A stretch of 35,068 bases of DNA from a virus. This document shows positions 8,421-33,846 of this stretch, one piece after another. Under the pieces are notes generated by a model. That model was not told where the DNA came from and made no database searches. It saw nothing but the letters and a program-made list of their open reading frames with translations. The position numbers were made by a program, and so were the translations under genes. The stretch spans positions 1 to 35,068 of IMG/VR virus record IMGVR_UViG_3300044638_008123, one strand, 5' to 3'. The number at the start of each line of letters is the position of its first letter. Position 1 is the first letter of the stretch.

Positions 8421-8424
8421 ATGC

Positions 8425-8745: not shown

Positions 8746-8766
8746 ATCCCTATATATTGAAAATTA

Positions 8767-19720: not shown

Positions 19721-19728
19721 GATATATA
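19721..19728 (+). promoter_or_regulatory. GATATATA box 6 nt before the first MoxR gene
   Basis: Reads TTTTTCGATATATAAAAATA then ATG at 19735. The 86-nt divergent gap to the thymidylate synthase-like gene holds this box on the plus strand. Confidence 0.5.
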
Positions 19729-19734
19729 AAAATA

Positions 19735-20985
19735 ATGAATGAATTAGATCCAGTTTGGAAAATTGCACAAAAGACTCAGGACCCCGAAATTGATGATTTT
19801 ACCCCCAAGGAGCTCATAGATGAGCTAGAATATCATTTTAGAAATCCTGAATCAGGAAGACCCCTGCTAATATGGGGAGCACCTGGAATAGGTAAAACCT
19901 CAATAGTAAAATCTTTTGGACTAGAAAATAAAGAAGTTCCTGTGATCGAGGTTATTCTTAGCCTTATGGAACCGACTGATGTTGTAGGACTTCCAGGAAT
20001 ACTTCCAGACGAGAAAATGCCAGATATAAAAAGATCGGTCAATTATCTTCCTAGAATATGGCCTATTGATAATGGAGATAAAGAAATTATCGACAATGCA
20101 GGAAACAAAACCAAGGTTGAGGGGAAGGGCGGAATAATATTCTTGGACGAGATCAATAGAGCACATCCATCGGTTCAAGCAGCAATGCTTAAAGTTATTT
20201 TTGATCGGGAGATAGCAGGAGCAAATTATAAGATCCCAGATAAATGGCTAATAGTTGCCGCAGCAAATAGACAGGAGGATGAACCAGGTGGATCTATAAA
20301 ACCGATGAGTTTTGCTTTGGCAAATAGATTCGCACAAATTAATCTTATCTCCGATCCATCTAGCTGGGTAGAGTGGGCAAGAAACAGAGATCTCGACGAT
20401 GATGTTGTTTCTTTTGTAGAACTCATGCAAGAATATTTTTACATCTCTCCTGAATCCATATCGACACTCGACACGACAATGGGAGTAACGCCAAGATCCT
20501 GGGATTATGCAGCAAGGGAATACTCCGAAAGAAAAAAAATAGCAAAAGATGAAATTCTATCGGAGAAAGAAATCAATAAGATATTTAATAAGCATGTCGG
20601 CAAAAAAGTATCTTCGATTATAACAGATTTTATAGAAACAACCAAAGTTTGGCCAGTTGAAAGAATCTCTAGAATATTTAGCGATCCTAAAAATTCAGAT
20701 CTATCTCTTCCCGTTTTAGATTCCGGAAATTATGATCTTAGAAAGTCGTATGCTGTAATGTATATGACATCCAAATACAAAAATGGAAAAGTTATATCGA
20801 AAGAAGAATTTATAAATTTTGTTGAATATCTGATAAATCTAGATTCCGGCGAAATAGCGATGAGCGGTTTAAATTTAATTAAAAGAACACACCCAGAGGT
20901 TAAGGATTATCTTAGCGACGTAACCCTGGAAAAAAATATTACTCCTTTCGTATCCAAGTATAGAAATTTCATGAGGGAAGTATAA
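19735..20985 (+). CDS. MoxR-type AAA+ ATPase, module A
   Basis: A 416-aa AAA+ ATPase. I chose the ATG at 19735 (MNELDPVWKIAQKTQDP) rather than the frame start at 19648, because the latter overlaps the divergent gene's start codon and the GATATATA box sits between. Seen: Walker A GAPGIGKT (48-55), Walker B GGIIFLDEINRAHPSVQ, sensor 1 WLIVAAANRQ, arginine-finger region FALANRFAQINL and TPRSWDYAARE near sensor 2. MoxR ATPases normally act with a VWA-domain partner to remodel or activate target proteins; that partner is the next gene (10-nt gap). Paralogous to the gene at 27233. Confidence 0.88.
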   Translation: MNELDPVWKIAQKTQDPEIDDFTPKELIDELEYHFRNPESGRPLLIWGAPGIGKTSIVKSFGLENKEVPVIEVILSLMEPTDVVGLPGILPDEKMPDIKRSVNYLPRIWPIDNGDKEIIDNAGNKTKVEGKGGIIFLDEINRAHPSVQAAMLKVIFDREIAGANYKIPDKWLIVAAANRQEDEPGGSIKPMSFALANRFAQINLISDPSSWVEWARNRDLDDDVVSFVELMQEYFYISPESISTLDTTMGVTPRSWDYAAREYSERKKIAKDEILSEKEINKIFNKHVGKKVSSIITDFIETTKVWPVERISRIFSDPKNSDLSLPVLDSGNYDLRKSYAVMYMTSKYKNGKVISKEEFINFVEYLINLDSGEIAMSGLNLIKRTHPEVKDYLSDVTLEKNITPFVSKYRNFMREV

Positions 20986-20995
20986 TAGCCATTAA

Positions 20996-22405
20996 ATGAA
21001 TATATCGGATAAAGAAAACTACGAAAAATCTGTCATCAAGATAAAAAGATGTGTTTCCAAGATTTTAATGAAGGGAGGATTTTTTGGAAATTTTCTTTCT
21101 GAGATCCCTGTAGCTTCGTCCAATGATTGCCAATTTTTTTCGACGGACGGTACAGCTTTTATATTTAACCCTCTAAATTGTTTGGAGATAAGTGACGAAG
21201 AGATAACATGGTCAATAAATCAGGGAATAATACACCTAGCATTACAACATTTTGATAGAAAGAATGATAATCTATTCCACGAGTGGAATCTGGCCTGTGA
21301 TATAATTTCCCATCAATATCTTGATGGAATTTGTAAATCTTTTCTTCCTAAAGAATACCAAGATTCGAGATTTATAAATGGCTCAGCTGAAGAAATATAT
21401 GATGATATACTCAGTGGTAAAATCCAACAAGTAGTAGAATACAGGTCTTATTGTGACGTTTTAAATCCCGGGGAAATAAATGAAAGCTATATCAACGAGG
21501 TTATAATAGGGGATTTATTAAAATCTGAGGGTTCCTTAGAAGAAAATAAAAAACAGAACTTAGATAAAACAACGAACAAAGAAACCGAGGTTTTGGATTC
21601 CGGCGAAGGTAGTTCGGATAAAAAAGGTTCATCGGATAAAGGATGGGATGATTCTGGTGGTAGTCAAAATAAAAAATTATTCCAGCCTCTGAAAGATAAC
21701 ACATTAAAGAAAAGAGAGGTGACTAGAAAAATAAGGGAAATAACAGAAAGATCGTCTAATAAGGGAACGGGTAATGGCGGAACATCCCCAGCTTTAAGAA
21801 AATTTATAGACAATCTGATGAATCCACAAGTAGATTGGAAAAAAACATTACAAAGATACACCTCAGAGATGGACGAGGATTTTTCTGTGTATAAGATACC
21901 AAACAGGAGACACATCTTTCAAGATCTTTACCTTCCTGGGCTTAAAGGAAGAATGGAGGGTCTTGGTACAATAGTAATAGCAATAGATACCTCAGGAAGT
22001 ATAGGGAAAGAGGAGTACAATGCTTTTATAGAGGAATCTAGAAGCATATTAAAGTGTTTTCTCCCAAAAGAAATATATATTATCTATTGTAGCGATGGGA
22101 TAGAGCCACCTTCTGGTGATATTGACAGGTTAAAATCGCCAGGTCAATTGCTGGATTTGGAAAAACAAAAATCCACTGGAGGAAACGAAGAGGGTTTTAA
22201 TCCCCCAATAAAATGGGTGGAAAATAACCTAATTAAAAAAGGCAAAGATCTAGCATGCATGATATATTTCACGGATGGAGGTGCCGAAGATCCTGAAAAA
22301 CCAAATTGGCACAAAAAAATAATATGGGCAATAACTACTGATCGTAGGATTCCTTTCGGTAAACATATAAATGTTCCGATTAATAAATTAAAATTAAAAA
22401 AATGA
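20996..22405 (+). CDS. VWA-domain protein with degenerate metallopeptidase-like N-domain, module A
   Basis: A 469-aa partner of the MoxR ATPase. The N-terminal region (about 50-150) matches the metallopeptidase-like domain found before VWA domains in DUF2201-type proteins, but the zinc motif is lost: NQGIIHLALQHF (75-86) stands where the paralog has LHEIMHCLGDH. A Ser/Lys/Asp-rich linker follows (about 180-260). The C-terminal VWA domain has MIDAS motif DTSGS (331-335) and a later metal-site segment YFTDGGAED. It therefore looks like a non-catalytic adaptor. The stop overlaps the nuclease start (ATGA, 22402-22405), so the nuclease is translationally coupled. Confidence 0.85.
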   Translation: MNISDKENYEKSVIKIKRCVSKILMKGGFFGNFLSEIPVASSNDCQFFSTDGTAFIFNPLNCLEISDEEITWSINQGIIHLALQHFDRKNDNLFHEWNLACDIISHQYLDGICKSFLPKEYQDSRFINGSAEEIYDDILSGKIQQVVEYRSYCDVLNPGEINESYINEVIIGDLLKSEGSLEENKKQNLDKTTNKETEVLDSGEGSSDKKGSSDKGWDDSGGSQNKKLFQPLKDNTLKKREVTRKIREITERSSNKGTGNGGTSPALRKFIDNLMNPQVDWKKTLQRYTSEMDEDFSVYKIPNRRHIFQDLYLPGLKGRMEGLGTIVIAIDTSGSIGKEEYNAFIEESRSILKCFLPKEIYIIYCSDGIEPPSGDIDRLKSPGQLLDLEKQKSTGGNEEGFNPPIKWVENNLIKKGKDLACMIYFTDGGAEDPEKPNWHKKIIWAITTDRRIPFGKHINVPINKLKLKK

Positions 22406-23004
22406 AGAAATTTCTAACGCTATTATTGATTCTTACACTATCAATTGGATTAAAAGCACAGGATACAGTCAGAATAAAAAACCAGGTTTTTGAAGTACTC
22501 TATTCTCAAAAATTAGAGCAACCTTTATGGATTAAATACAGATCTACTAATAGACCAACTAATGTTAATAGAGGATCAATGGATTTTTACGCAGAGAAAA
22601 CAATTAAAACATCCGATAGCGAGGATTATATAAAGAATGTTTATGACAAAGGGCACGGAGCACCTGCAGCTACATTTTCAGATAACATGGAAAATTTAAA
22701 GCAAACATTTTCTTATCTTAATTGTATAATGCAGAATCAATATTTAAATAGGGGTGAATGGAGAATGCTGGAAGAGCAGATTAGAAAATGGGACGACACC
22801 GAAAATTTAACAGTTTTAATTAAAATATTTTTTGATAGCCCAGTAAAAAGAGTTGCTACTAATGCAGCCATTCCTTCATATCTACAAAAACATATTTATT
22901 TTGAATCTCAGAAAAAATGGAGATGCTTTGTTTTTCTAAACGAGAAACCAAAATTTAAGTGGGATCAATTAGAAATGATTTGCAGTCCAAAGGATCATAA
23001 ATAA
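22402..23004 (+). CDS. Exported DNA/RNA non-specific endonuclease (NUC1/NucA-like)
   Basis: A 200-aa secreted nuclease of the beta-beta-alpha metal family. The signal peptide is MKKFLTLLLILTLSIGLKAQ, with likely cleavage near AQ. The catalytic motif is YDKGHGAPAATF (81-92; family DRGH, general base H85). FSYLNCIMQNQYLNRGEWRM (103-122) carries the conserved metal-binding Asn (family N..PQ..N...W..LE). It is short for the family but holds the whole core. It would act in the periplasm or outside, for instance degrading incoming DNA of competing phage or host DNA at lysis. It ends the MoxR-VWA operon, with a bidirectional terminator 30 nt later. Confidence 0.85.
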   Translation: MKKFLTLLLILTLSIGLKAQDTVRIKNQVFEVLYSQKLEQPLWIKYRSTNRPTNVNRGSMDFYAEKTIKTSDSEDYIKNVYDKGHGAPAATFSDNMENLKQTFSYLNCIMQNQYLNRGEWRMLEEQIRKWDDTENLTVLIKIFFDSPVKRVATNAAIPSYLQKHIYFESQKKWRCFVFLNEKPKFKWDQLEMICSPKDHK

Positions 23005-23033
23005 TTCTATTGTAATTTACATATTCCAAAAAT

Positions 23034-23062
23034 AAAACCCAGATCTTTTAGATCTGGGTTTT
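23034..23062. terminator. Bidirectional terminator
   Basis: Perfect 13-bp stem AAAACCCAGATCT/AGATCTGGGTTTT with loop TTT and T-runs on both strands. It ends the plus-strand nuclease operon and the minus-strand RNA transcript. The stem core is nearly the same as in the terminator at 26921. Confidence 0.9.
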
Positions 23063-23176
23063 TAATGCATCCTACTCTTAAACCCCAATATAAGTGAGGG
23101 TGAACATCTAGCATCATACTGCGCATCATATGACTTTTACTACTAGAGGTAGGAGGAGCTGAATCCATGTTCAATG

Positions 23177-23334
23177 CTGGTCAGGAAGGATTCGAACCCC
23201 CATGCGGCAATTCAATAAATGGCACTTATGCTTGCAAGCGTGTGGTCAACCCATTACCATTTATCTATCTCGTTATCCGCACCCTCGAGACAGGAGGGCA
23301 TGTCTGCCGTGCATACGCTTTTCATCACCGACCA
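23177..23334 (-). ncRNA. tRNA-like structured RNA, about 157 nt
   Basis: The minus strand has a 7-bp acceptor-like stem TGGTCGG/CTGACCA and, directly inside its 3' strand, a canonical T-arm (GGGGG TTCGAAT CCTTC). Discriminator G is followed by CA, as in the tRNA genes here. In place of D and anticodon arms lie about 110 nt with nested helices: GGCA/TGCC, CCCTC/GAGGG, TGCGG/CCGCA and GATAAATGG/CCATTTATT. There is no standard anticodon arm. It is not a usual tRNA and not a recognisable tmRNA, since no ALAA tag or conserved tmRNA D-loop is seen. Together with the terminator and a 100-nt stretch with nothing certain, it fills 23005-23378. Confidence 0.55.
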
Positions 23335-23378
23335 GTGTAACTTTTATCTATCGTTTTTTATCAAACCGATTAAACCTT

Positions 23379-23627
23379 CTATTGTATTAAATCTGAAATA
23401 GATTCTTGCAATTTGCCCTCTGAAAAATACTTATTGATGGCTTCTATCTTATCATCAGCATCTACTAACCTCTGTAATGCAATCTCTGCATCTTTTAAAA
23501 AATCGTTTGCTGTATGATCCCCTATTCCAACTGACTTTTCTGTTAGAAGTTCTAAAGACATTAGAGCATGCTCCCTTTCAGCAATTGCACCAGCTAGTAA
23601 GGCTTTAACTACTCTTGATTGTGACAT
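23379..23627 (-). CDS. Conserved-looking hypothetical 82-aa protein
   Basis: A small, almost fully helical protein (SQSRVVKALLAGAIAEREHA; LKDAEIALQRLVDADDKIEA). I recall similar short proteins with RVVK.LLAGAIAERE...L and SVGIG in T4-like phages of other hosts, where the function is unknown. No signal or membrane part. It is placed between tRNA-Gly and the tRNA-like RNA on the same strand. Confidence 0.7.
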   Translation of the reverse strand: MSQSRVVKALLAGAIAEREHALMSLELLTEKSVGIGDHTANDFLKDAEIALQRLVDADDKIEAINKYFSEGKLQESISDLIQ

Positions 23628-23659
23628 TTTATTATATTTTATTTTCGATATTACAGTAA

Positions 23660-23705
23660 CCTAATAAACCTATTTTTGATAAATAAACCGGAATAGTTTA
23701 TTAGG
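23660..23705 (-). repeat. 10-bp inverted repeat in the leader of the 82-aa gene
   Basis: CCTAATAAAC (23660-23669) and GTTTATTAGG (23696-23705) are perfect inverted repeats with a 26-nt loop that contains another AATAAACC copy. It lies between tRNA-Gly and the 82-aa gene and could be a processing hairpin. Confidence 0.4.
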
Positions 23706-23724
23706 CATATTCTGGTTTAGTGTG

Positions 23725-23797
23725 AGCGGGAGACCGGGCTCGAACCGGCCACCTATAGCTTGGAAGGCTATCGCTCTACCAAATGAGCTACTCCCGC
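23725..23797 (-). tRNA. tRNA-Gly (anticodon TCC)
   Basis: Acceptor GCGGGAG/CTCCCGC, D-arm with TTTGGTAGAG, anticodon loop CTTCCAA, T-loop TTCGAGC. Discriminator T followed by CAC; no CCA encoded. Confidence 0.95.
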
Positions 23798-23805
23798 ATT
23801 TTTAT

Positions 23806-25017
23806 TCAGATCAAACCTTTTATCCTTTCAAATTTAAATCCTGTCAATTTTTGGTATAATATTTCGCCTTTAGATAATGGAGGAAGATTATATAACGACG
23901 GATAGATTGTTTTGTAATATTCATAAATATTTCTAACATATTCTTCACCAAAGTTTTTTATAATATACCCTATTACTATTGCCTGAAAAATTTCAGACCA
24001 TTTATAAAAGGAAAGATGAGAAAGACCGTAGAAATTAAAATCGAAGAGTTTTACAATGTCCTCCATCGTGTTAATTCTAGTTATTCTACCGTAATGCTCG
24101 TGATATTCCATTTTCTTTGAATATAATACACCATTAATAAGAATTGTTTCATCTATTTCAGAATCTTTATGTGAATTGTGTATCATAGTGAAGGGAAATT
24201 CTATACTATCTAAGTTGGCTCCAAAATTAGCATCAAGCATGAGAGGTGAATCTTTAAGAATGAATGTTTGTTTCAATCCTACCTCTTCCCTGTATTTTTG
24301 ACTTATTTCCATCAGGTTTAAATGAATCATAAGCTGTTCAATGTAACATTCCCCGTTTTTAGTATTGTCTATTAGATCCTTATTTTTTATATAGTGATCT
24401 AGTGACATTTGTGCTGCCAAATTAAAACTATCATAATCATTAACGATAACTACATTCATATTAGGAATATCCCCTATCCTAATGTTATTTAATTTAAATT
24501 CCGAATGTTCATTAGTTAATTTATTAAATAAATCGAGGTATGTTACCTTGGCAGATTTAAAAAAGGAGTCAGAATCACCCAATGATGGATAATTATTAAA
24601 GATATCAAGTAATTTATCGTCACCATTTTTATGAACTGGTGGTCTAAGATCAGGATGTGAATATACTACTGATGCATTATATTTAGAAAAATCTATTCTA
24701 TCGTATACGAGGGTATCCGTATCTATATGAACAAATGGCTCCTTTATTTCTTTGTATATTCTAAGTTTTGGTATACAGAATAAATCGGATGTAGTGTCCT
24801 GTAATATATCGGTATCAATATTGGTGTAGGGAACACCTATGTCTAATATTTGATTTTTTATTTTGCTATTAGTGTATAATGAAATACCCCCATATTCCCT
24901 ATTAGCAAGTAGAACACTGAGCATTTGAACATACATTAAATCCTTCCAGATTATATCTTTATCATTCTCTTTTTTTAGATCAAACTTATTAGGAACGAAC
25001 GTTTGTATCAGCTTCAT
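23806..25017 (-). CDS. Glycosyltransferase-like protein (resembles DUF6734)
   Basis: A 403-aa protein with a GT-A-like layout. An early KLIQTFVPNKFDL segment precedes GISLYTNSKIKNQIL and PFVHIDTDTLVYDRIDF, whose HIDTDT (97-102) is a DxD-type nucleotide-sugar/metal motif. FTMIHNSHKDSEID later may close the active site. It resembles proteins labelled DUF6734 in Bacteroidota, as I remember them. The substrate is unknown: phage DNA base, virion protein or host surface glycan are all possible. It lies 10 nt after the PhyH-like gene in the same operon. Confidence 0.7.
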   Translation of the reverse strand: MKLIQTFVPNKFDLKKENDKDIIWKDLMYVQMLSVLLANREYGGISLYTNSKIKNQILDIGVPYTNIDTDILQDTTSDLFCIPKLRIYKEIKEPFVHIDTDTLVYDRIDFSKYNASVVYSHPDLRPPVHKNGDDKLLDIFNNYPSLGDSDSFFKSAKVTYLDLFNKLTNEHSEFKLNNIRIGDIPNMNVVIVNDYDSFNLAAQMSLDHYIKNKDLIDNTKNGECYIEQLMIHLNLMEISQKYREEVGLKQTFILKDSPLMLDANFGANLDSIEFPFTMIHNSHKDSEIDETILINGVLYSKKMEYHEHYGRITRINTMEDIVKLFDFNFYGLSHLSFYKWSEIFQAIVIGYIIKNFGEEYVRNIYEYYKTIYPSLYNLPPLSKGEILYQKLTGFKFERIKGLI

Positions 25018-25027
25018 GTAAAATCTA

Positions 25028-25801
25028 TTAGAGTTTTTTTACCTCCCAATATTTTAATTTTAGTTCATAAACGTCGATTGGTTCCCTTTTCATGTGTTCC
25101 CCGCTTCTAAATGGCGATCCCTTTCCAGTATATCCACTCAATATAGATCTTCTGAATCGATTGCTTTTATTCTCATTCGATCCGTGAACTATATGAGAAT
25201 GCAAAAAAATTGCTTGTCCTTTGTTAACATGTGGTGTTATTTTGCTAAAATTATGTCCCTCCGGCATAACACAAGCCTTACCCCTCTCATTCCTCCATCT
25301 GATTGGATTAAGCTTAGATCTTTCTTCATCTATCTCTATAGGTAAAATTGGTAGAAGATGAGAAGCCTCATATACCCAAATACCCCCATTTGCCTCGTCG
25401 GTATCGTCTAGCGATATACTAACATTAGCAGTTTTATTCCATTGTGTTTGAGCATAGAAAGCATCCTGGTGTGCATCCCTACCAAGTTCCCCTGGGGGTT
25501 TAAAATAAGCCCATGTTTGTATTCCTTGAATCTCAGAATTTATTATAAACTCCATGGATTCTAATATTTTAGGATGTCCAAGGATCTTAGACACTAACTC
25601 GGATTCTTTGTGTGGGTGCATGTAAGGGTCATACTCACCGTACTTATCATCTACCGAATTTCTTTTCTTTCTTAAATTATCTAGATTCTCCGATATTAAA
25701 TCGGCTTCTTCTGGCGTGATCAGATCTATAATAGAATATCCTTTATATTTCCAATCGAAGGAAAGCTGTTGGACTTCCTCCTTTGTAAGATATTTAAACA
25801 T
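25028..25801 (-). CDS. Phytanoyl-CoA dioxygenase (PhyH)-type Fe(II)/2-oxoglutarate oxygenase
   Basis: A 257-aa double-stranded beta-helix oxygenase. The iron triad is visible: HQDAFY (H111, D113) and HIVHGSNEN (H206), followed by NRFRRSI with the 2-oxoglutarate-binding Arg (R216 or R218). TWAYFKPPGELGRDAHQD and GGIWVYEASHL are typical PhyH segments. It hydroxylates an unknown small molecule, nucleotide or side chain. Its operon partner is the glycosyltransferase-like gene just downstream, so a hydroxylate-then-glycosylate pair is an attractive inference. ATATATAAAA occurs upstream (25815-25824, minus). Confidence 0.82.
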   Translation of the reverse strand: MFKYLTKEEVQQLSFDWKYKGYSIIDLITPEEADLISENLDNLRKKRNSVDDKYGEYDPYMHPHKESELVSKILGHPKILESMEFIINSEIQGIQTWAYFKPPGELGRDAHQDAFYAQTQWNKTANVSISLDDTDEANGGIWVYEASHLLPILPIEIDEERSKLNPIRWRNERGKACVMPEGHNFSKITPHVNKGQAIFLHSHIVHGSNENKSNRFRRSILSGYTGKGSPFRSGEHMKREPIDVYELKLKYWEVKKL

Positions 25802-25885
25802 TGGGGATTTTATTTTATATATGATAGTTAAAATATTTCATTTTTTCCATCGGTAATGGGCAGGGAAACATGTAGAATTCTACCA

Positions 25886-25893
25886 GATATATA
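25886..25893 (+). promoter_or_regulatory. GATATATA box 6 nt before the 202-aa gene
   Basis: Reads CCAGATATATACAAAAC then ATG at 25900. Same 6-nt spacing as at 7581 and 19721. Confidence 0.5.
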
Positions 25894-25899
25894 CAAAAC

Positions 25900-26508
25900 A
25901 TGAAGCACGTTTCAATATATGAAAATTTCGGGGTTAATTCACCATCTGTAATTGATTTTTTCGATCTCACATTTACGTTGGTTCTTCATAATAGAACCAT
26001 TATAAAAGGACTAATACAGAACGAGGGTGCGGTGAAAGAACTATTCAGTGATAATCAGCAATATAAATTGATTGATAGCTGCTATCCATTCCAAACCAGG
26101 TACACACTAGATGATAGTGAGATTAAAAGAGCGGAGTGTGCTGAAAAAAATATACGAGAGTATATCGGAAATAAACTAGAGGATCTTGAGTGCGAGATCA
26201 TATATTACCGACCTATGTATATTTACAGAAGGATGGCATATGATCCCATTAGAATTTTTGCACCAGGAGCTAGGAGGGATTCAGGAAAAGAATTTAGCAT
26301 GGAAGCAAAATTTTATAGCAAGAATGATGAAGAAGGTATCAAAAAAATGCCAGAGATTATCGCAAAAGCTAAAGAATTTGCTTCTAAATATGGTGTTTCC
26401 CACGTTCTCCCTCATGGGCCAAATTTAGTTAGTAATCCGTTACGCAAAGAATATGATAAGCATTTCACCCCCCTCGAAAATTTTGAATGGGAAAAATATT
26501 ATTGGTAA
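25900..26508 (+). CDS. Hypothetical 202-aa protein
   Basis: Not recognised. It starts MKHVSIYENFGVNSPSVIDF, loosely like the short N-terminal peptides of the module B proteins. The rest is mixed alpha/beta (ECEIIYYRPMYIYRRMAYDP; KKMPEIIAKAKEFASKYGVS) and ends aromatic (FEWEKYYW). No signal peptide or membrane segment. It is a single plus-strand gene between minus-strand genes, with its own promoter-like box, running up to 5 nt before the tRNA-Gln end. Confidence 0.65.
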   Translation: MKHVSIYENFGVNSPSVIDFFDLTFTLVLHNRTIIKGLIQNEGAVKELFSDNQQYKLIDSCYPFQTRYTLDDSEIKRAECAEKNIREYIGNKLEDLECEIIYYRPMYIYRRMAYDPIRIFAPGARRDSGKEFSMEAKFYSKNDEEGIKKMPEIIAKAKEFASKYGVSHVLPHGPNLVSNPLRKEYDKHFTPLENFEWEKYYW

Positions 26509-26513
26509 TTCTG

Positions 26514-26584
26514 ATGCCCGATTAGGATTCGAACCTAAACTAACTCCGTCAAAGGGAGTTGTGCTACCGTTACACCATCGGGCA
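26514..26584 (-). tRNA. tRNA-Gln (anticodon TTG)
   Basis: Acceptor TGCCCGA/TCGGGCA, anticodon loop CTTTGAC in stem ACTCC/GGAGT, T-loop TTCGAAT. Discriminator T followed by CAG. Confidence 0.93.
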
Positions 26585-26591
26585 ATTTTAG

Positions 26592-26673
26592 TGGGAGCAG
26601 CAGGACTCGAACCTGCGAACTCGAAAGAGGAGTGATTTACAGTCACTTGTCATTGCCGCTAGACGATGCTCCC
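26592..26673 (-). tRNA. tRNA-Tyr (anticodon GTA)
   Basis: Acceptor GGGAGCA/TGCTCCC, anticodon loop CTGTAAA, long variable arm (CCTCTTTCGAG, class II), T-loop TTCGAGT, discriminator A followed by CTA. The only tRNA here without C-A or CCA after the discriminator. Confidence 0.93.
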
Positions 26674-26681
26674 AATTTTTG

Positions 26682-26753
26682 TACTCCCAACGGGATTCGA
26701 ACCCGTGCTACATCCGTGAAAGGGATGTGACCTAACCACTAGTCGATAGGAGC
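26682..26753 (-). tRNA. tRNA-Glu (anticodon TTC)
   Basis: Acceptor GCTCCTA/TGGGAGT with two wobble pairs, anticodon loop CTTTCAC in stem CATCC/GGATG, T-loop TTCGAAT. Discriminator A followed by CAA. Confidence 0.93.
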
Positions 26754-26759
26754 ATTTTG

Positions 26760-26831
26760 CGGGGATGGAAGGGTTCGAACCTACGACCTAGTCATTAACA
26801 GTGACCCGCTCTACCACTGAGCTACATCCCC
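26760..26831 (-). tRNA. tRNA-Asn (anticodon GTT)
   Basis: Acceptor GGGGATG/CATCCCC, anticodon loop CTGTTAA in stem GTCA/TGAC, T-loop TTCGAAC. Discriminator G followed by CAA. Confidence 0.94.
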
Positions 26832-26839
26832 AATTTCTG

Positions 26840-26910
26840 AGTCGACTACAGGATTCGAACCTGTGTGAGAGGTTTTGCAGACCCCTACCTATCCTCTCGG
26901 CCAAATCGAC
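26840..26910 (-). tRNA. tRNA-Cys (anticodon GCA)
   Basis: Acceptor GTCGATT/AGTCGAC, anticodon loop CTGCAAA in stem GGGGT/ACCTC, T-loop TTCGAAT. Discriminator T (typical for Cys) followed by CAG. Confidence 0.94.
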
Positions 26911-26920
26911 ATCAAATAAA

Positions 26921-26949
26921 AAACCCAGACCTTATTAAGATCTGGGTTT
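26921..26949 (-). terminator. Terminator after the 28-aa mini-gene
   Basis: Stem AAACCCAGA and AAG paired with CTT and TCTGGGTTT (one internal mismatch), loop of 3 nt, followed by TTTTTT on the minus strand. It lies between the mini-gene and tRNA-Cys and shares the CCCAGA/TCTGGG stem with the terminator at 23034. Confidence 0.8.
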
Positions 26950-26971
26950 AAAAAATATATTTAAAAAAATG

Positions 26972-27058
26972 TTAAACCAGATCCGTGCGCATATAATCCA
27001 TCTCATTGCCTTGTTCAGACATTTGATAGCAATTATTATATGTGCTCTGATTTACCAT
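26972..27058 (-). CDS. 28-aa mini-gene candidate
   Basis: An ATG at 27058 opens a 28-codon frame (begins MVNQSTYNNCYQMSEQ) ending in TAA at 26972. A GATATATA box lies 18 nt upstream and a strong terminator begins about 23 nt downstream, so it looks like a complete single-gene unit. The product is polar, with one Cys and four Met, and has no hydrophobic segment. It could instead be part of a small non-coding RNA. Function unknown. The stretch from here to 27232 otherwise holds only promoter-like boxes. Confidence 0.45.
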   Translation of the reverse strand: MVNQSTYNNCYQMSEQGNEMDYMRTDLV

Positions 27059-27076
27059 TTTTGATTGATTGAATGT

Positions 27077-27102
27077 TATATATCTTTTTTGAGGTTTGTT
27101 TC
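27077..27102 (-). promoter_or_regulatory. Promoter-like element: GAAACAAACC, 8 nt, GATATATA (mini-gene)
   Basis: Minus strand GAAACAAACC (27093-27102) and GATATATA (27077-27084), with the same 8-nt spacing as the element before the lipoprotein gene at 15092-15117. Confidence 0.55.
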
Positions 27103-27206
27103 ATAATCATTATAATTAATTAGCAGGTTAAGACATTGGGTCTTCCTGAATTTTTATGGATTTTTAGATTTTCTCATCTTTTATAAAGATAGGTCGAATT
27201 TACTTA

Positions 27207-27214
27207 GATATATA
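27207..27214 (+). promoter_or_regulatory. GATATATA box before module B operon
   Basis: Reads TTAGATATATAAATCAAAA, 18 nt before the MoxR ATG at 27233. The stretch GATATATAAATCAAAA is identical to the one before the 30-aa mini-gene (34120-34135, minus). Confidence 0.5.
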
Positions 27215-27232
27215 AATCAAAAAAGATAAAAA

Positions 27233-28774
27233 ATGAGAAGAGTTTCCAATTTTGAGACCTTTATCAAAGATAGACAACAGGTAAACAGAAACACTGTTAA
27301 CGAAGGTGTATTTTCTTGGATTAAAGATAACGTCATCGACAAACTAACCGGATGGGCAAAGTCATTCTATGACAAGCTAACAAATGGGGGTATTCCTAAA
27401 ATACCGGCAGGTAAACCATATGCAGGTAAACCATCCGTTATGTTATATTTGCCAGAAATGGGTCCAATCGATAAACAAATAGAAGAAGTTCACGGATCAC
27501 AGGGAATGACAGAAGCTGTTGTACCTTTAGAGTATCCCAACCAAAAGGAAGGAGTGGTAGACGTAAACACTGAAGAACTAAAAACCATGGTTAGGGATCT
27601 TTATATGTTAAAAAATACGGGTGAAATTGCAACCCCTATTTTTATTTACGGAGCACCCGGAATTGGTAAGACCCAAATCGTTGGTGCAGTAGCATATGAA
27701 TTAGGTATTCCTCTAATGGACTTTAAAAATCTTGATGTTCAATTTATGAACCCTGAGGATTTTTCAGGGGTACCAAGTCAACACAATATCGAAGAACCAA
27801 CTTTTCAAGATATGGAAATGGAAGGTCCAGAGGGAAATGCAATAAAGAAAAGAGTAATGACCTCACAAGGAAAGGGATTTACGAGATTCAATCCCCCTGC
27901 AAACCTACCAACAGATAACGGAAAAGAAGGAAAGGGCGGATTTATTTTCCTTGATGAAATGAACAGAGCGGATAAAAACGTCTTAAATAAATTGATGCAA
28001 TTCGTTCAAATGGGTAGACTCCCTGATTATCAGCTTCCTGATAAATGGGTTATTGTAGCAGCAGGTAACAGAGCGATTGAAGCAGATGTTGCAGATTTTG
28101 ATTTTGCATTAGCAAACAGATTCGAGGTAGTTAACTTCGTTCCTAAGGTAGAAGAATGGACCGACTGGGCATCTAAAAACGAAAGGATTTTACCAGAATT
28201 AGTATCTTTCTTAATCGATAATAAACAACTTTTCCATAAATTAGATACTGATAACGAATCCAAAACTTTTCCAACGCCAAGATCATGGACGGGCGGAGCG
28301 GAAAAACTGGCTGGTATAATTAAAATTAGAGGACTTCAAAGCTGGAAAGATATACCAAGTAAAGATATCCTACAAATTTTTAGACTTCGCGTTGGACCAG
28401 AGGCAGCAGGAGCTTTTAATTCATATCTGGATGTTTTAAGAAATATCTCGGAAAGAGATCTTGAGACCATGATGAACAATCCATCCGCAGCAATTAAAAT
28501 ACCAGGAGTGGAAAAAAACAAAAGTGTTTTAAGAGCGGTTAGTGAAATGGCCCTTAAGAAGGTTAAAACGTATGATGCACAAACACTTTATAACATTATG
28601 GAGTATTTTTCACAATACGGACAGGCAGAAATGTTGAGCTGGTTATTAAAATCAATATACAAAAACTTCCCAGAAGCTCAAGCTGGTGTAACTGATAATA
28701 GCAATCCTGATCATCAAATATTAAATAAAATGGCAGAGATAGCTACAAAGTCAGCACATTCTACAATAAGATAA
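27233..28774 (+). CDS. MoxR-type AAA+ ATPase, module B
   Basis: A 513-aa AAA+ ATPase, paralog of the one at 19735 but with about 110 extra N-terminal residues. Seen: Walker A GAPGIGKT (140-147), Walker B GGFIFLDEMNRAD (DE 241-242), sensor 1 WVIVAAGNRA, FALANRFEVVNF and TPRSWTGGAEKL. The N-terminus has NFETFIKD, then NTVNE (20-24), like the starts of the next two genes and like T4 capsid-targeting peptides (F..FI....(V/I)NE). The residues after it (GVFSWIKDNVIDKLTGWAKS) could be an amphipathic helix. It is the first gene of a four-gene plus-strand operon. Confidence 0.88.
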   Translation: MRRVSNFETFIKDRQQVNRNTVNEGVFSWIKDNVIDKLTGWAKSFYDKLTNGGIPKIPAGKPYAGKPSVMLYLPEMGPIDKQIEEVHGSQGMTEAVVPLEYPNQKEGVVDVNTEELKTMVRDLYMLKNTGEIATPIFIYGAPGIGKTQIVGAVAYELGIPLMDFKNLDVQFMNPEDFSGVPSQHNIEEPTFQDMEMEGPEGNAIKKRVMTSQGKGFTRFNPPANLPTDNGKEGKGGFIFLDEMNRADKNVLNKLMQFVQMGRLPDYQLPDKWVIVAAGNRAIEADVADFDFALANRFEVVNFVPKVEEWTDWASKNERILPELVSFLIDNKQLFHKLDTDNESKTFPTPRSWTGGAEKLAGIIKIRGLQSWKDIPSKDILQIFRLRVGPEAAGAFNSYLDVLRNISERDLETMMNNPSAAIKIPGVEKNKSVLRAVSEMALKKVKTYDAQTLYNIMEYFSQYGQAEMLSWLLKSIYKNFPEAQAGVTDNSNPDHQILNKMAEIATKSAHSTIR

Positions 28775-28784
28775 TTAGATAATA

Positions 28785-29693
28785 ATGGGTAAATTTATAA
28801 AATACGGATCTTTTAGGTCTTTTATTAAATCAATAAATGAAAATACAGATTCAGTTGAGGATGATCTTGGGTATAATCCTGTTGAAATTATTAGAAGAAT
28901 AAACAAAGCAATACTTTGGACTAATATTAACGACGTAGGTAGAGATTATGCAGATGGATTAGCAAAGGTTGACATATATGGATCTGATGCAATTAGACCT
29001 AAAACAATGTGTACGGATGGAACTAGAATCATATTTCACCCAGAATTCGTGGCTTCCCAAAGCGATGAAGCGATTAGATTAGTTTTGCTACATGAAATAA
29101 TGCACTGTCTTGGCGATCATATGACAAGAAGACAAGAAAGGAATCCACTAATCTGGAATTGGGCTTGTGATTATGCCATCAACCCTATCTTGGATGGGGA
29201 AAAGGGTCTTGAATGGCCAAAAAATGAGGATGGATCCAGAATGGGTCTTCTAGAACCAAAATATGCGGGGATGAGAGCAGAAGACATCTATGAGATAATC
29301 AAAGATATGCCACCACCAAAGAATGAACAAGATCTTGGAAATGTCGTAGATCACGGATCCCCATTACCTGACCCGGATCCAGGCTTGGAAGTACAGGTAA
29401 CACCAGATGATGAGGAAGATGAATATGATGATACGTCAGATGGATCCGAAGAAGACAATAATGGTGAGAACGGTGAAGATGGTGAAACGGGGGGTGGGGG
29501 ATCTAAAGTTCATCAAGCTCAAGTTGGAGATCTTATTAAAAGTAAGGACGGAAGATATGGAAAGATAACATCCATCAATTCTGACGGAACTCATGATATA
29601 GATGAAATGACAGAAGAAGAAGTAAAGATGGAAAGAGCAGCATCCTCTGGTAGATCTAATCTTTCTGATTTAGCGGATGTTAACGAGATATAA
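28785..29693 (+). CDS. Metallopeptidase-like protein (HEIMH), module B
   Basis: A 302-aa counterpart of the N-terminal half of the 469-aa module A protein, as a separate gene. The zinc motif is intact: LLHEIMHCLGDHM (H103, E104, H107, third ligand perhaps H112), followed by IWNWACDYAINPILDG, which matches WNLACDIISHQYLDG in the paralog. It begins with KYGSFRSFIKSINE (6-19), a short peptide like those of its neighbours. The C-terminal third is acidic and Gly/Asn-rich, then an SH3/KOW-like patch (VGDLIKSKDGRYGKITSINS). The gene starts 10 nt after the MoxR gene. Whether it cleaves anything is unknown. Confidence 0.8.
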   Translation: MGKFIKYGSFRSFIKSINENTDSVEDDLGYNPVEIIRRINKAILWTNINDVGRDYADGLAKVDIYGSDAIRPKTMCTDGTRIIFHPEFVASQSDEAIRLVLLHEIMHCLGDHMTRRQERNPLIWNWACDYAINPILDGEKGLEWPKNEDGSRMGLLEPKYAGMRAEDIYEIIKDMPPPKNEQDLGNVVDHGSPLPDPDPGLEVQVTPDDEEDEYDDTSDGSEEDNNGENGEDGETGGGGSKVHQAQVGDLIKSKDGRYGKITSINSDGTHDIDEMTEEEVKMERAASSGRSNLSDLADVNEI

Positions 29694-29704
29694 TAATCAA
29701 AAGC

Positions 29705-30064
29705 ATGAACAAAATATTTTCATTCGGTGAATTTTCAAAATCAAAAGGAGTAAACGAAAGCACTATGGGTCAAATGTCTTTAAAAAGAAATGAATTTGAT
29801 GTTATAGTAGATCCACAGGGAGGCGGAGAAGGCGGAGGAGGTGAAACTACTACAGGTGTAACCGAAGGTCCTGGGGAAAAGCCATTACCAGGCTTAGGTG
29901 AAAAAAGACCATTACCAGGTTTACCAGGAGAAAAACCAGGAGACGAAGATGGAGATAAAACTCCACCACCTTCATTACCAAACGTTGGTGATAGAGTAAT
30001 ACTATCTGACGGGACAGAAACCACAATCAAAAGAGTACTTCCTAATGGTGACATAGAAGTTTAA
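29705..30064 (+). CDS. Pro/Gly-rich linker protein with SH3-like tail, module B
   Basis: A 119-aa protein. The N-terminus IFSFGEFSKSKGVNEST (4-20) resembles the starts of the two genes before it. The middle is low-complexity Gly/Pro/Glu with repeated PLPGL. The C-terminal 27 residues (PNVGDRVILSDGTETTIKRV) repeat the SH3/KOW-like pattern at the end of the 302-aa protein. It may tether or space the other components. It sits 11 nt after and 16 nt before its neighbours. No homologue recognised. Confidence 0.65.
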   Translation: MNKIFSFGEFSKSKGVNESTMGQMSLKRNEFDVIVDPQGGGEGGGGETTTGVTEGPGEKPLPGLGEKRPLPGLPGEKPGDEDGDKTPPPSLPNVGDRVILSDGTETTIKRVLPNGDIEV

Positions 30065-30080
30065 TACTAAAACACAGAAA

Positions 30081-31037
30081 ATGCTAGTAAAATTAGGACA
30101 ATATACATTAATAGATCCAAATTCCATAACTCAAAATCCACAGGGTAAAGGCGATGCACCAGGTGGCGGCGGAAAATCAAAATTTACGGAGGATCCAACT
30201 CAGATGAGCGACATTCCGATGGTTGGACAAGAAAAACCCGGTATTAGCACACAAAGGAGTGTAACTGACAAAACTGGATCAGTAAAGAATAAAGCAACGG
30301 AATACACTAAGGGTGGTAAGTCTATAATCTATAAAGGAAAAAAAGCACTGCCTGATTGGAAATCTATTGCAGCAAAAGCCATAGGAAATTCTAATAATAG
30401 CAAATTTAAAGAAATGGTAAGAAGGCTAGCCGCCTCTGAACCGCTTGTTAACTGGAAAAGAGAATTAAAGAAATTCTTCGACAGTGCATTTAAGGCTAAG
30501 GATACTGTGTTACCAAATAGAAGATTCGTTGCTGGAGGAAAATATCTATATGGTCAAAAGCCTATAGGTAAAGATACCCTTAGAACAATCGTAGCTGCTA
30601 TTGATACCTCATCCTCTATTTCACAAAAGCAATCTAATACGTTTGTTAAAGAAGTAATGTATCTTTGCAAGCAGTATGATGCTGAGGTAACTTACATCAT
30701 TTATTGTAGTGATGATATTGATAATGTTGATATAGTTAAAAAAGGGAAGACCCCGGATCTTTCAAAATGGGCATCCACTTTCGGTAATGCTAAAGGATTT
30801 ATTCCTCCGTTTGAATTTGTTGATGGCGCTCATAAAAAAAATATTCTAAAGACTAAAATTGATCCTTCAATATTTATTTATTTAACAGATACAGGTGGGG
30901 AAATGCCAGATCCTAGAAAGCATGGTATACCGAAATACGCAAAGAAAACTTTCTGGTTTATCTGCTCACCCCAGATGTATAATAAACCACCTTTTGGAAA
31001 GATCCTGTTTGCACCGATCTCTGCTATTAAAGAGTAA
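30081..31037 (+). CDS. VWA-domain protein, module B
   Basis: A 318-aa protein matching the C-terminal half of the 469-aa module A protein: SEPLVNWKRELKKFF parallels MNPQVDWKKTLQRY, and VLPNRRF parallels KIPNRRH. MIDAS motif DTSSS (175-179), then TYIIYCSDDID and IYLTDTGGEMPDP (later MIDAS Asp). The N-terminal 80 residues are Gly-rich and disordered-looking, with no (V/I)NE peptide. It would bind the MoxR ATPase and a client protein through the metal site. Last gene of the operon; a bidirectional terminator follows after about 40 nt. Confidence 0.85.
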   Translation: MLVKLGQYTLIDPNSITQNPQGKGDAPGGGGKSKFTEDPTQMSDIPMVGQEKPGISTQRSVTDKTGSVKNKATEYTKGGKSIIYKGKKALPDWKSIAAKAIGNSNNSKFKEMVRRLAASEPLVNWKRELKKFFDSAFKAKDTVLPNRRFVAGGKYLYGQKPIGKDTLRTIVAAIDTSSSISQKQSNTFVKEVMYLCKQYDAEVTYIIYCSDDIDNVDIVKKGKTPDLSKWASTFGNAKGFIPPFEFVDGAHKKNILKTKIDPSIFIYLTDTGGEMPDPRKHGIPKYAKKTFWFICSPQMYNKPPFGKILFAPISAIKE

Positions 31038-31078
31038 CATTACCTCATTAAACCGTTCACTACTCCATCCAAATAAAG

Positions 31079-31100
31079 AACCCATAGTAGTATATGGGTT
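31079..31100. terminator. Bidirectional terminator between convergent genes
   Basis: Perfect 8-bp stem AACCCATA/TATGGGTT with a 6-nt loop, between the plus-strand module B operon and the minus-strand membrane protein gene. T-tails are short. Confidence 0.7.
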
Positions 31101-31116
31101 TAAATAATAAGTTCGT

Positions 31117-32527: not shown

Positions 32528-32538
32528 AATAAAAGTTG

Positions 32539-32620
32539 TGACCCCCGAGAGACTCGAACTCTCACGTCTTGCGACACCAGATCCTAAGTCTGGCTTGGCT
32601 ACCAATTACAACAGAGGGCC
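32539..32620 (-). tRNA. tRNA-Leu (anticodon TAG)
   Basis: Acceptor GGCCCTC/GGGGGTC, anticodon loop CTTAGGA in stem CCAGA/TCTGG, class II variable arm, T-loop TTCGAGT. Discriminator A followed by CAA. Confidence 0.94.
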
Positions 32621-32628
32621 TAAATTTG

Positions 32629-32702
32629 TGGACCAGCCTGGGCTCGAACCAGGGACCTAATGATTATGAGTCATTTGCTCTAACCAACTGAGCTACAAGT
32701 CC
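32629..32702 (-). tRNA. tRNA-Met (anticodon CAT), elongator or Ile2
   Basis: Acceptor GGACTTG/CTGGTCC with one T-T mismatch, anticodon loop CTCATAA, T-loop TTCGAGC. G1-C72 rules against an initiator tRNA. A lysidine-modified Ile2 tRNA cannot be excluded. Discriminator A followed by CAA. Confidence 0.9.
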
Positions 32703-32743
32703 TTTTTGATGTTACAAATATAGAGTAAAACATCGAAAATAAA

Positions 32744-32807
32744 AAACGAAAAGACCAAAGAGAATGTAGATTTTCACTAACTCGATTTAGCGGTCTCTTT
32801 GATCTTT
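32744..32807 (-). terminator. Long hairpin, probable terminator or processing site between tRNA-Pro and tRNA-Met
   Basis: AAAGACCAAAGAGA (32750-32763) and TCTCTTTGATCTTT (32794-32807) pair over 14 positions with one mismatch around a 30-nt loop. On the minus strand it is followed by TTTTCGTTTTTTATTTT. The loop is long for a standard terminator, so a processing hairpin is possible. Confidence 0.5.
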
Positions 32808-32810
32808 CTG

Positions 32811-32887
32811 TCGGGTAGGCAAGATTCGAACTTGCGAGTTGTCTTGGTCCCAAACCAAGCCGGGTGACCTGACTCCCGAACTACCCG
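32811..32887 (-). tRNA. tRNA-Pro (anticodon TGG)
   Basis: Acceptor CGGGTAG/CTACCCG, anticodon loop TTTGGGA in stem CTTGG/CCAAG, T-loop TTCGAAT. Discriminator A followed by CAG. Confidence 0.94.
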
Positions 32888-32894
32888 AGTAATG

Positions 32895-32967
32895 GTTGAA
32901 CGACCGGGATCGAACCGGCGACATCTAGCGCCACAAGCTAGTGCTCTGCCAACTGAGCTACATCCAA
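32895..32967 (-). tRNA. tRNA-His (anticodon GTG)
   Basis: Acceptor TTGGATG/CGTTCAA, anticodon loop TTGTGGC in stem CTAGC/GCTAG, T-loop TTCGATC, discriminator C as expected for His, followed by CAT. Confidence 0.92.
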
Positions 32968-33111
32968 CATATTTTAAGGAAAGAGAAAGATGGTTCAGTG
33001 GACAATCTCTTTTATAACTGGCATTACTAGTGGTAGTTCAAACTCCGATGATATTAACTTCCCACCTCTACCAGGTATTTCATATCACCATTCCCCAATC
33101 AACCTTAATTG
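32968..33111. other. 144-nt spacer between tRNA-His and tRNA-Arg, unexplained
   Basis: Too long for a plain tRNA spacer. On the minus strand CTGG and GGTGG can pair with CCACT and CCAG over a large loop. On the plus strand there is an ATG at 32990 after AAGGA, but its frame runs into the tRNA-Arg gene. I see no tRNA and no convincing gene. Confidence 0.35.
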
Positions 33112-33185
33112 TGATCCCGGTTGGATTCGAACCAACGACATCCACCTTAGAAGGGTGGCGCTCTATCCAGCTGAGCTACAGAACC
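33112..33185 (-). tRNA. tRNA-Arg (anticodon TCT)
   Basis: Acceptor GGTTCTG/CGGGATC, anticodon loop CTTCTAA in stem CCACC/GGTGG, T-loop TTCGAAT. Discriminator A followed by CAA. Confidence 0.93.
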
Positions 33186-33194
33186 AAATGTAGT

Positions 33195-33236
33195 GATCTG
33201 TCCAGGGTCGCAGCCGGCTCTCCTATTGGACAGATC
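33195..33236 (-). ncRNA. Hairpin RNA with palindromic loop
   Basis: A perfect 9-bp stem GATCTGTCC/GGACAGATC closes a 24-nt loop that contains the self-complementary AGCCGGCT. It lies between tRNA-Arg and tRNA-Leu(TAA). A second weaker stem CCTAA/TTAGG lies next to it (about 33240-33280). It may be a small stable RNA or a processing spacer. Confidence 0.4.
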
Positions 33237-33283
33237 TAACCTAACGAAGTCGCAAAATCCGGCTTGACGCTATCATTAGGATG

Positions 33284-33370
33284 TACCCCAGACGGGAATC
33301 GAACCCGTACGGACCTTTCGGTTCCACAGCATTTTAAGTGCTGCATGTCTACCAGTTTCATCACCGGGGC
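33284..33370 (-). tRNA. tRNA-Leu (anticodon TAA)
   Basis: Acceptor GCCCCGG/CTGGGGT, anticodon loop CTTAAAA in stem CAGCA/TGCTG, class II variable arm with GGAACCGAAAGGTCC, T-loop TTCGATT. Discriminator A followed by CAT. Confidence 0.94.
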
Positions 33371-33377
33371 ATTAAAA

Positions 33378-33500
33378 GGTGCCGGTGGGAGGTCTGGCTA
33401 CCTCCACGGTGTCCATTTCGGATTCACCACCTTTTCTAGAATTACGGGACGTCTAATAATCTCTATTCGAATTCGAGATCATTCATTCCGCCACACCGGC
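33378..33500 (-). ncRNA. tRNA-derived structured RNA, about 120 nt
   Basis: Minus strand: perfect 7-bp acceptor-like stem GCCGGTG/CACCGGC, then TG and GCGGAAT as at the start of a Leu-type tRNA. Its 3' strand is directly preceded by a 5-bp stem GGAGG/CCTCC in T-arm position, but with loop TAGCCAGA instead of TTCGANN. The interior holds a hairpin ATCTC/GAGAT where the D-loop should be and a GGTG...CACC hairpin capped by GAAA. No anticodon arm is evident. It could be a decayed tRNA or a new stable RNA. AAAAGATATAT ends right at its 5' side (33501). Confidence 0.5.
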
Positions 33501-33510
33501 ATATATCTTT

Positions 33511-33600
33511 TGGCAGAGAGAAAGGGATTCGAACCCTTGTTACGATCGCTCGTAAACACGCTTTCCAAGCGTGCTCCATCAGCCTCTCGGACACCTCTCT
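33511..33600 (-). tRNA. tRNA-Ser (anticodon GGA), CCA encoded
   Basis: Acceptor AGAGAGG/TCTCTCT, anticodon loop TTGGAAA in stem CACGC/GCGTG, class II variable arm, T-loop TTCGAAT, discriminator G followed by CCA. The only tRNA gene here with encoded CCA. Confidence 0.93.
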
Positions 33601-33603
33601 AAG

Positions 33604-33701
33604 TATTAGACCCGACCACCATTTCAGCGTTTCCGCGTGCTTTCAGTATGGCATGAACGTTACGTCCATACTGGTGGCGCCAGCCTCTGCGGGGTCTAAT
33701 A
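33604..33701 (-). ncRNA. 98-nt multi-helix RNA candidate between tRNA-Ser and tRNA-Thr
   Basis: Ends form a perfect 10-bp stem TATTAGACCC/GGGTCTAATA. Inside, on the minus strand, CCACC pairs with GGTGG, CAGTATGG with CCATACTG (8 bp, 14-nt loop), and GCG with CGC around a GAAA tetraloop. Several nested helices in under 100 nt is far more than expected for a spacer. It has no T-arm or anticodon arm, so it is not a tRNA. T4 also encodes two stable non-tRNA RNAs in its tRNA cluster. Confidence 0.6.
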
Positions 33702-33704
33702 AGC

Positions 33705-33765
33705 TTGCTACCGAACTTTTGCATTCTAACAGATATTATGTTAGCGTACGTATTTTACGTTAGCG
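33705..33765. other. Short spacer with hairpins before tRNA-Thr 3' end
   Basis: Contains CTAACA/TGTTAG (6-bp stem, loop GATATTA) and an ACGTA/TACGT hairpin with repeated GTTAGCGT. Probably processing structures between RNAs. Confidence 0.3.
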
Positions 33766-33768
33766 TTG

Positions 33769-33841: not shown

Positions 33842-33846
33842 AGTTG

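Follow-up and report, generated by a model that had tools for sequence, protein, structure and literature searches.

Capsid-targeting-like leaders on one of two MoxR/metallopeptidase-VWA modules in a T4-like phage

The window analyzed here, a stretch of 35,068 nucleotides (nt) from a virus (positions 1 to 35,068 of IMG/VR record IMGVR_UViG_3300044638_008123), encodes two modules, each composed of a MoxR AAA+ ATPase and a partner with a metallopeptidase-like domain and a VWA domain. Module A (positions 19735 to 22405) and module B (27233 to 31037), both on the plus strand, had been noticed in an original prediction made from the sequence alone. We found that the MoxR and the metallopeptidase-like protein of module B begin with short leaders resembling the capsid-targeting sequence of phage T4, and that module A appears to have lost its leaders. 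Our favored interpretation, which we consider fairly probable, is that the products of module B probably travel inside the head, from which they may plausibly be injected with the DNA, and that module A works in the infected cell. The MoxR/metallopeptidase-VWA pair is already known; the destination of its proteins, as suggested by the head leaders, is what seems to be new.

Leaders resembling the T4 capsid-targeting sequence

Nearly all MoxR and metallopeptidase proteins of the T4-like relatives open with a leader of the form [FY]xx[FY]…NE/, in which the slash denotes a predicted, not a measured, cleavage site; examples are MGKRIYNFNEFVNE/ followed by S, MKRIQNFKTFSSVNE/ followed by A, and MKKLVNYKNFLNE/ followed by K. 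In module B, the leader of the MoxR (MRRVSNFETFIKDRQQVNRNTVNE/, then G; positions 27233 to 27304) is predicted to be cut after Glu24, and that of the metallopeptidase-like protein is MGKFIKYGSFRSFIKSINE/, followed by N (28785 to 28841). The T4 proteins IPII and IPIII have the N terminus MKTYQEFIAE/A. Residues 4 and 7 (Y and F) of the T4 leader control targeting, and residues 8 and 10 (I and E) control processing (PMC9026906); it is at these mutationally defined residues that the leaders of the relatives match the T4 sequence. The T4-core pattern [FY]xxF[I]xE was present in 13 of the 152 open reading frames (ORFs) of the relative G003; in 1,000 shuffles, it averaged 0.9 occurrences and never exceeded 6. 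A first, looser pattern had given weak enrichment (22% versus 8%) and was superseded by the T4-core pattern and a trained profile.

The profile was trained on leader proteins outside the modules, and proteins were scored against shuffles of their own N termini, with P < 0.05 as the threshold. In the T4-like clade, it detected leaders in 35 of 47 MoxRs, 21 of 26 split metallopeptidases, and 10 of 17 fused metallopeptidase-VWA proteins, and in none of the split VWA proteins (0/26), outgroup MoxRs (0/18), or outgroup partners (0/15; outgroup total, 0/33). Within the window, the MoxR (P = 0.0025) and the metallopeptidase-like protein (P = 0.0075) of module B were positive, the separate VWA protein of module B was negative (P = 0.22), and module A scored 0/2. 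The leader-bearing clade is split from the leaderless phage MoxRs with a Shimodaira-Hasegawa-like approximate likelihood ratio test (SH-aLRT) value of 100. Exceptions inside this clade are module A of the window and L079/L081, the partners of which are leaderless too; L089, L093, L095, and L100 have variant N termini with an NE or DE site.

Twenty leader-bearing proteins, 18 of them from G003 and encoded outside the modules, were searched against Pfam, which returned adenylate kinase, RNA ligase, and OmpA domains as well as weak CHAP and nucleotidyltransferase matches. An ADP-ribosyltransferase (LYRG motif), suspected among the leader-bearing proteins, was unsupported by Pfam. Leader-like N termini in G003 (L020 to L027), including L025:12311-12955, L026:18723-19835, and L027:3234-6742, belong to adenylate kinase, T4-type RNA ligase, and OmpA-domain proteins, which are possibly further head cargo.

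Head genes of the relatives

Of 12 related contigs, 7 encode a protease of the gp21 type (Peptidase_S77) together with a capsid protein of the gp23 type, and six clusters were read. Peptidase_S77 was not found in the fragments G001 to G004 and is present in other relatives. Five of the protease proteins also contain a fused scaffold-like region, in which YSEYLAE-type segments number 14, 15, 7, 3, and 13; shuffled sequences gave means of about 0.14 to 0.15 and maxima of 2 to 4, so that the protein with three segments is within the shuffled range. The N-terminal regions of the capsid proteins contain the sites SLNE/SAGAY, SLNE/ALASG, SLNE/NVAY, and ELYE/NAYN, and in T4 the first 65 residues of gp23 are removed by gp21 (PMC9958956). 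Since the scaffold repeats contain the leader core and the capsid proteins an NE/ site, the leaders join the scaffold core with the apparent capsid cut site. Fusions of the protease to a scaffold-like region with tandem YSEYLAE-type segments were observed in L139 to L144 (head clusters of G016, G009, G010, G014, G012, and G013) and also in the huge phages LR756501, LR756502, and LR745206; they were not seen in the examined regions of Flavobacterium phage MaF61 and Prevotella phage Lak-C1.

The leaders might instead be some other lineage-specific N-terminal address, for example to a membrane or a replication compartment, or a translation-related sequence, in which case the modules would act only in the infected cell. 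This would suit the many leader proteins with an unknown function or with general enzyme domains (adenylate kinase and RNA ligase), and the argument for packaging is one from sequence. Set against the NE/ site near the N terminus of the capsid protein, the leader core that fills the scaffold repeats, and the agreement with mutationally defined T4 residues, however, such an address appears improbable.

Loss of the leaders from module A

In L003, L004, L097, and L098, both proteins of module A carry leaders, and in L003 and L004 an additional leader-bearing gene is located upstream of the module. Relative to these four contigs, the window has a deletion junction ahead of the MoxR of module A (positions 19728 to 19738, plus strand; about 1.1 kb). 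An alignment gap of 1,103 columns after position 19732 brings the upstream region against the ATG at 19735, and the blastn breakpoint is at 19734 to 19738; the deletion took the upstream leader-bearing gene, the MoxR leader, and the N-terminal extension. The start codon at 19735 is equivalent to Met92 of the relatives in the alignment to L003, L004, and L098. A second deletion (20987 to 20996, plus strand; about 45 nt), seen as gaps of 31 and 14 columns from window position 20986, took the leader of the partner, which in L003 is MKRLRNFKEYQLLKE/N. These alignments indicate that both leaders of module A were lost through two separate deletions; of the phages examined, no other shows this loss. 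Gain of the leaders in the relatives is formally possible; loss is favored because leaders are general in the clade.

The relatives retain an internal Met codon at precisely the position where the leaderless MoxR of module A begins in the window; in the L003 MoxR (7728 to 9218), it is the ATG at 8001. A shorter, leaderless MoxR could also arise in the relatives by initiation at the internal ATG.

MoxR ATPases and their metallopeptidase-VWA partners

Both MoxR ORFs are real: the module A protein (19735 to 20985, 416 amino acids, without a leader) matches phrog_1297 (E = 6.7e-55) and AAA_5 (2.3e-10), and the module B protein (27233 to 28774, 513 amino acids, with a leader) matches the same families (1.1e-47 and 5.4e-07). 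They have Walker A, Walker B (DE), the sensor 1 Asn, the Arg finger, and sensor 2 (TPRSW), and the invariant positions of the MoxR alignment are GAPG-GKT, F-DE-NR, A-NR, RF, and PR-W. All shared motifs listed in the original prediction (GAPGIGKT, (I/F)IFLDE(I/M)NRA, FALANRF, and TPRSW in the ATPases; W-K-x-x-L, NRR, YIIYCSD, and the metal ion-dependent adhesion site [MIDAS] DxSxS in the VWA parts) are present. The accessory domains LARA and CbbQ_C, which are specific to subfamilies, were not among the Pfam matches of the window up to E = 0.1.

The partner had been described simply as a VWA protein. A VWA domain is indeed present in both modules, but the partner of module B comprises three ORFs rather than one gene, and a metallopeptidase domain had been overlooked. 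According to Pfam, the partner consists of DUF2201_N ("putative metallopeptidase domain") followed by DUF2201 (VWA), fused in module A and split across ORFs in module B. The fused, leaderless module A protein (20996 to 22405) matches DUF2201_N with an E value of 1.3e-17 and DUF2201 with 3.8e-09; in module B, DUF2201_N (6.6e-21) is on the leader-bearing protein (28785 to 29693) and DUF2201 (5.9e-11) on the separate VWA protein (30081 to 31037). All three proteins match phrog_1314, the PHROG label of which, "HNH endonuclease," misfits the DUF2201 metallopeptidase-VWA domains and looks wrong. The third ORF of the module B partner (29705 to 30064) is small and Gly/Pro rich, has its own leader (MNKIFSFGEFSKSKGVNE/, then S), and matched nothing in Pfam or PHROG. 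Its C-terminal segment, VGDRVILSDGTETTIKRVLPNGDIEV, resembles the end of the G003 metallopeptidase ORF; a short VGD...G...I...NGD/H-I segment ends this ORF, the neighboring metallopeptidase-like ORF (within 29500 to 29690), and the G003 metallopeptidase ORF.

Module B has an intact HExxH motif (HEIMH, positions 29091 to 29105), of which H103, E104, and H107 are invariant in 18 homologues; the protein that carries it is a putative zinc metallopeptidase. Module A lacks the motif and has in its place the degenerate site QGIIH (21221 to 21235, from the alignment). The fused A-type relatives have either QGIIH or no HxxxH; the second His is invariant, and the first His and the Glu are replaced. This pattern in module A and its relatives suggests that the module A partner is probably not a zinc peptidase, that is, a pseudo-metallopeptidase. 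The AlphaFold2 model of the module B metallopeptidase domain has a predicted local distance difference test score of 74, with leader residues 1 to 25 at low confidence. Its nine best Protein Data Bank (PDB) matches in Foldseek are selecase and jannalysin (minigluzincins), with weak E values of 5e-3 to 0.12, and a profile match has an E value of 0.01. For the module A model, the PDB matches are VWA folds, among them NorD from the NorQD structure (9qhe) and I domains of integrins. The MIDAS residues of the VWA domain, D331, S333, and S335 (DxSxS) and T426-D427, are invariant.

Kinship and distribution of the modules

Modules A and B are 28% identical in the MoxR, 35% in the VWA domain, and 23% in the metallopeptidase domain. 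With MoxRs as different as this, the modules might each be an ordinary MoxR-VWA chaperone of the cellular type, taken up from bacteria on separate occasions and sharing no phage history. However, in a tree that covers sampled phage MoxRs only (N4 not among them), both MoxRs group in a single phage clade with an SH-aLRT value of 100, to which the leaderless phage MoxRs do not belong. The nearest relatives of each module, moreover, come from contigs of T4-like phages that encode these partners as well, which makes separate acquisition highly improbable. The modules are thus paralogous and belong to a T4-like phage, as originally proposed. The duplication with divergence that had been suggested stands as far as paralogy goes, but a simple recent duplication within the phage is not supported: modules A and B form deep, separate branches, and a close relative is without module B.

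Pairwise distances of the three components (MoxR, VWA, and metallopeptidase) are correlated with one another, with r between 0.79 and 0.87 (MoxR-VWA, r = 0.845) and 0 of 2,000 permutations reaching such values, and the modules therefore evolve as units; the correlation includes shared phage ancestry and on its own does not prove physical interaction. In tblastn searches, 501 phage records matched the MoxR of module B and 611 that of module A, N4 gp24-like proteins included. Single-protein scans of viral contigs gave 0 loci for the MoxR of module B and two loci each for the MoxR of module A and the VWA protein of module B, and the MoxR alignment as the query gave 79 loci in a redundant set, where counts are not independent events. 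The related T4-like phages PAU, PTm1, and MaF61 had no phrog_1297 match at E ≤ 1e-8. The pairing is conserved in many phages, and neither of the outcomes against which the original prediction had been set, unrelated MoxR subfamilies and an unconserved pairing, occurred. The named phages that are nearest by terminase and capsid protein have Tenacibaculum, Flavobacterium, Prevotella, and Sphingomonas as hosts.

Module B occupies a segment of about 4.0 kb (27103 to 31116). In a blastn comparison to L004 (G002), which is about 75 to 80% identical to the window over most shared regions, window positions 27102 and 31117 adjoin at L004 15758/15772, 14 nt apart, indicating that module B is a clean accessory cassette of about 4 kb, missing at the same site in this close relative. 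The insertion sits in a tRNA cluster, and the only direct repeats at the cassette ends are a weak 28-nt pair (79%; 26930/31082). Two modules per contig were also found in G003, G004, G006, and G007 (types B and C) and in G009 (A and C), MoxR genes occur as a tandem pair in the G015 group, and phrog_1297 matches number up to three per contig.

Packaging, injection, or head assembly

Entry of the leader-bearing proteins into the prohead core and their trimming by a gp21-type protease have good support, and packaging of module B as head cargo is, from its sequence, probable. Injection of module B into the next host is plausible; for ejection, the support is moderate and comes from the modules being accessory, multicopy, and variable, like the T4 internal proteins.

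An alternative is a head-assembly machine, in which the leaders direct both proteins, MoxR and metallopeptidase, to the core of the prohead to help in folding, clearing, or processing scaffold and head proteins, and little or nothing is injected. The same leader evidence fits this role. Virion assembly and peptidolytic processing were proposed for the jumbo-phage MoxR/metallopeptidase-vWA pair (Iyer et al. 2021; PMC7824862), the MoxR p618 of the archaeal virus ATV has been assigned to virion tail development (PMC4124505), and ATP presumably reaches the unsealed prohead. For an essential assembly factor, however, it would be unusual to be multicopy, diverged, and encoded on a cassette that is absent from a close relative, or to have no phrog_1297 match in the related T4-like phages PAU, PTm1, and MaF61. 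We therefore regard assembly as a possibility to be taken seriously but an unlikely one.

In the favored scheme of packaging and injection, both modules would consist of a MoxR AAA+ ring and a partner made up of a zincin-like domain and a MIDAS-bearing VWA domain, and the VWA half, by analogy with known MoxR-VWA systems, would dock clients and couple them to the ATPase. The leaders of the module B MoxR and peptidase-like protein would bind the prohead scaffold core, the repeats of which share the core motif; the gp21-type protease would cut after NE, and the mature proteins would stay inside the head. T4 IPI and Alt are ejected with the DNA, and the mature module B proteins would be ejected in the same way and might target a host complex before the expression of any phage gene. 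The separate VWA subunit may be carried in together with its partner, or its synthesis in the new host may activate the machine. Having lost both leaders, module A should work in the cytoplasm during infection, where its simplest role would be that of a chaperone without peptidase activity. The suggestion of two different clients or stages of infection thus remains plausible and has become specific, with head leaders and an intact HExxH in module B and neither in module A. A bolder and rather doubtful extension is that T4-like phages inject, at time zero, an ATP-driven unfoldase-peptidase of two parts that was packaged without its VWA protein and is idle until the leaderless VWA is made in the host, the split gene serving as an activation switch, and that modules are shuffled as cassettes and readdressed from the particle to the cytoplasm by loss of their leaders.

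Several points weigh against packaging and injection. The leader-bearing members are known from their genes, and the spacing from the aromatic core to NE in the window leaders is longer than in T4. The window fragment has no head genes of its own, so that the protease and scaffold assumed for it are those of relatives, and the missing module A leaders rest on one contig. The separate VWA protein never bears a leader, and the complete complex might not be packaged; the MoxR would need either to enter the head as an intact ring or to reassemble later from monomers. Head targeting by itself would fit ejection or assembly, and the account of the pair by Iyer et al. (PMC7824862) favors assembly. 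Size is no obstacle in principle for the MoxR, since T4 delivers even beta-galactosidase fused to an internal protein or leader (PMC9026906).

Comparison to known systems

The original prediction had ranked the modules as a candidate undescribed system, which does not hold, since the jumbo-phage pair of Iyer et al. has the same composition, a MoxR AAA+ ATPase with a vWA protein that has an N-terminal metallopeptidase domain. The sections of that paper on the pair are silent on leaders for head targeting, on splitting of the partner, on paralogy between modules, and on HExxH loss (PMC7824862). ATPase and VWA genes of N4 (gp24/gp25) are adjacent and belong to the same phrog_1297 and phrog_1314, found in hundreds of phage records; the N4-type relatives sampled, including RaK2 and S-TIM54, are leaderless, whereas the window modules lie in a separate, leader-bearing clade. 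Among leaderless MoxRs, that of PA5oct carries the note "ESI-MS/MS," as do the portal, capsid, and tail proteins of the same record, which counts, together with ATV p618, in favor of packaging, and a text search of the RaK2 virion proteomics found no mention of the MoxR/VWA ORFs 053/054 as virion proteins.

The T4 internal head proteins and Alt have a short N-terminal leader with the [FY]xxF[I]xE core, a gp21-type protease, and a destination in the head, which is the arrangement predicted for module B. T4 packs small proteins and an ADP-ribosyltransferase in this way, whereas the predicted cargo of module B is an AAA+ ATPase and a metallopeptidase-like protein. In SPN3US and phiKZ-like phages, a protease related to gp21 cleaves packaged head proteins, among them ejection proteins, behind a motif with Glu (PMC10052503), which resembles the prediction for module B, but the motif is AXE, the cargoes are others, and no MoxR module has been described. 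ATV p618/p892 is likewise a MoxR-VWA pair, with the MoxR p618 a major virion component (PMC4124505); it differs from the window modules in having no metallopeptidase domain, in its extracellular tail development, and in an unrelated virion architecture. RavA-ViaA, NorQ-NorD, and CbbQ-CbbO also combine a MoxR AAA+ ATPase with a VWA protein, and the VWA fold of the window resembles NorD, but these systems are cellular, and their VWA partners lack DUF2201_N and a head leader.

Phage MoxR/metallopeptidase-VWA pairs occur in hundreds of phages, and a head leader would put part of the machine in the particle, which would give work on head maturation, or on the opening minutes of infection, a definite claim to test. 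If injected, an AAA+ remodeler would add ATP-driven machines to the known internal head proteins, which are inhibitors and modifying enzymes. With the leader motif, lists of predicted head cargo could also be drawn up from sequence alone for uncultured T4-like phages.

Neighboring genes and other module arrangements

Directly 3′ of module A lies a gene for a DNA/RNA nonspecific endonuclease (22402 to 23004, plus strand; Endonuclease_NS, 1.1e-21) with an N-terminal hydrophobic, signal-like segment; it is also present in L004, and L003 has a comparable ORF. The tRNA cluster is dense (26513 to 26910 and 32538 to 33931, with 15 tRNAs in the window), and its content differs between close relatives. 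A type C module at L065:4093-8599 has two tandem VWA ORFs, and L076:149-4660 and L085:6380-10902 each contain two tandem, diverged MoxR genes followed by one metallopeptidase-VWA gene, all of them leader bearing.

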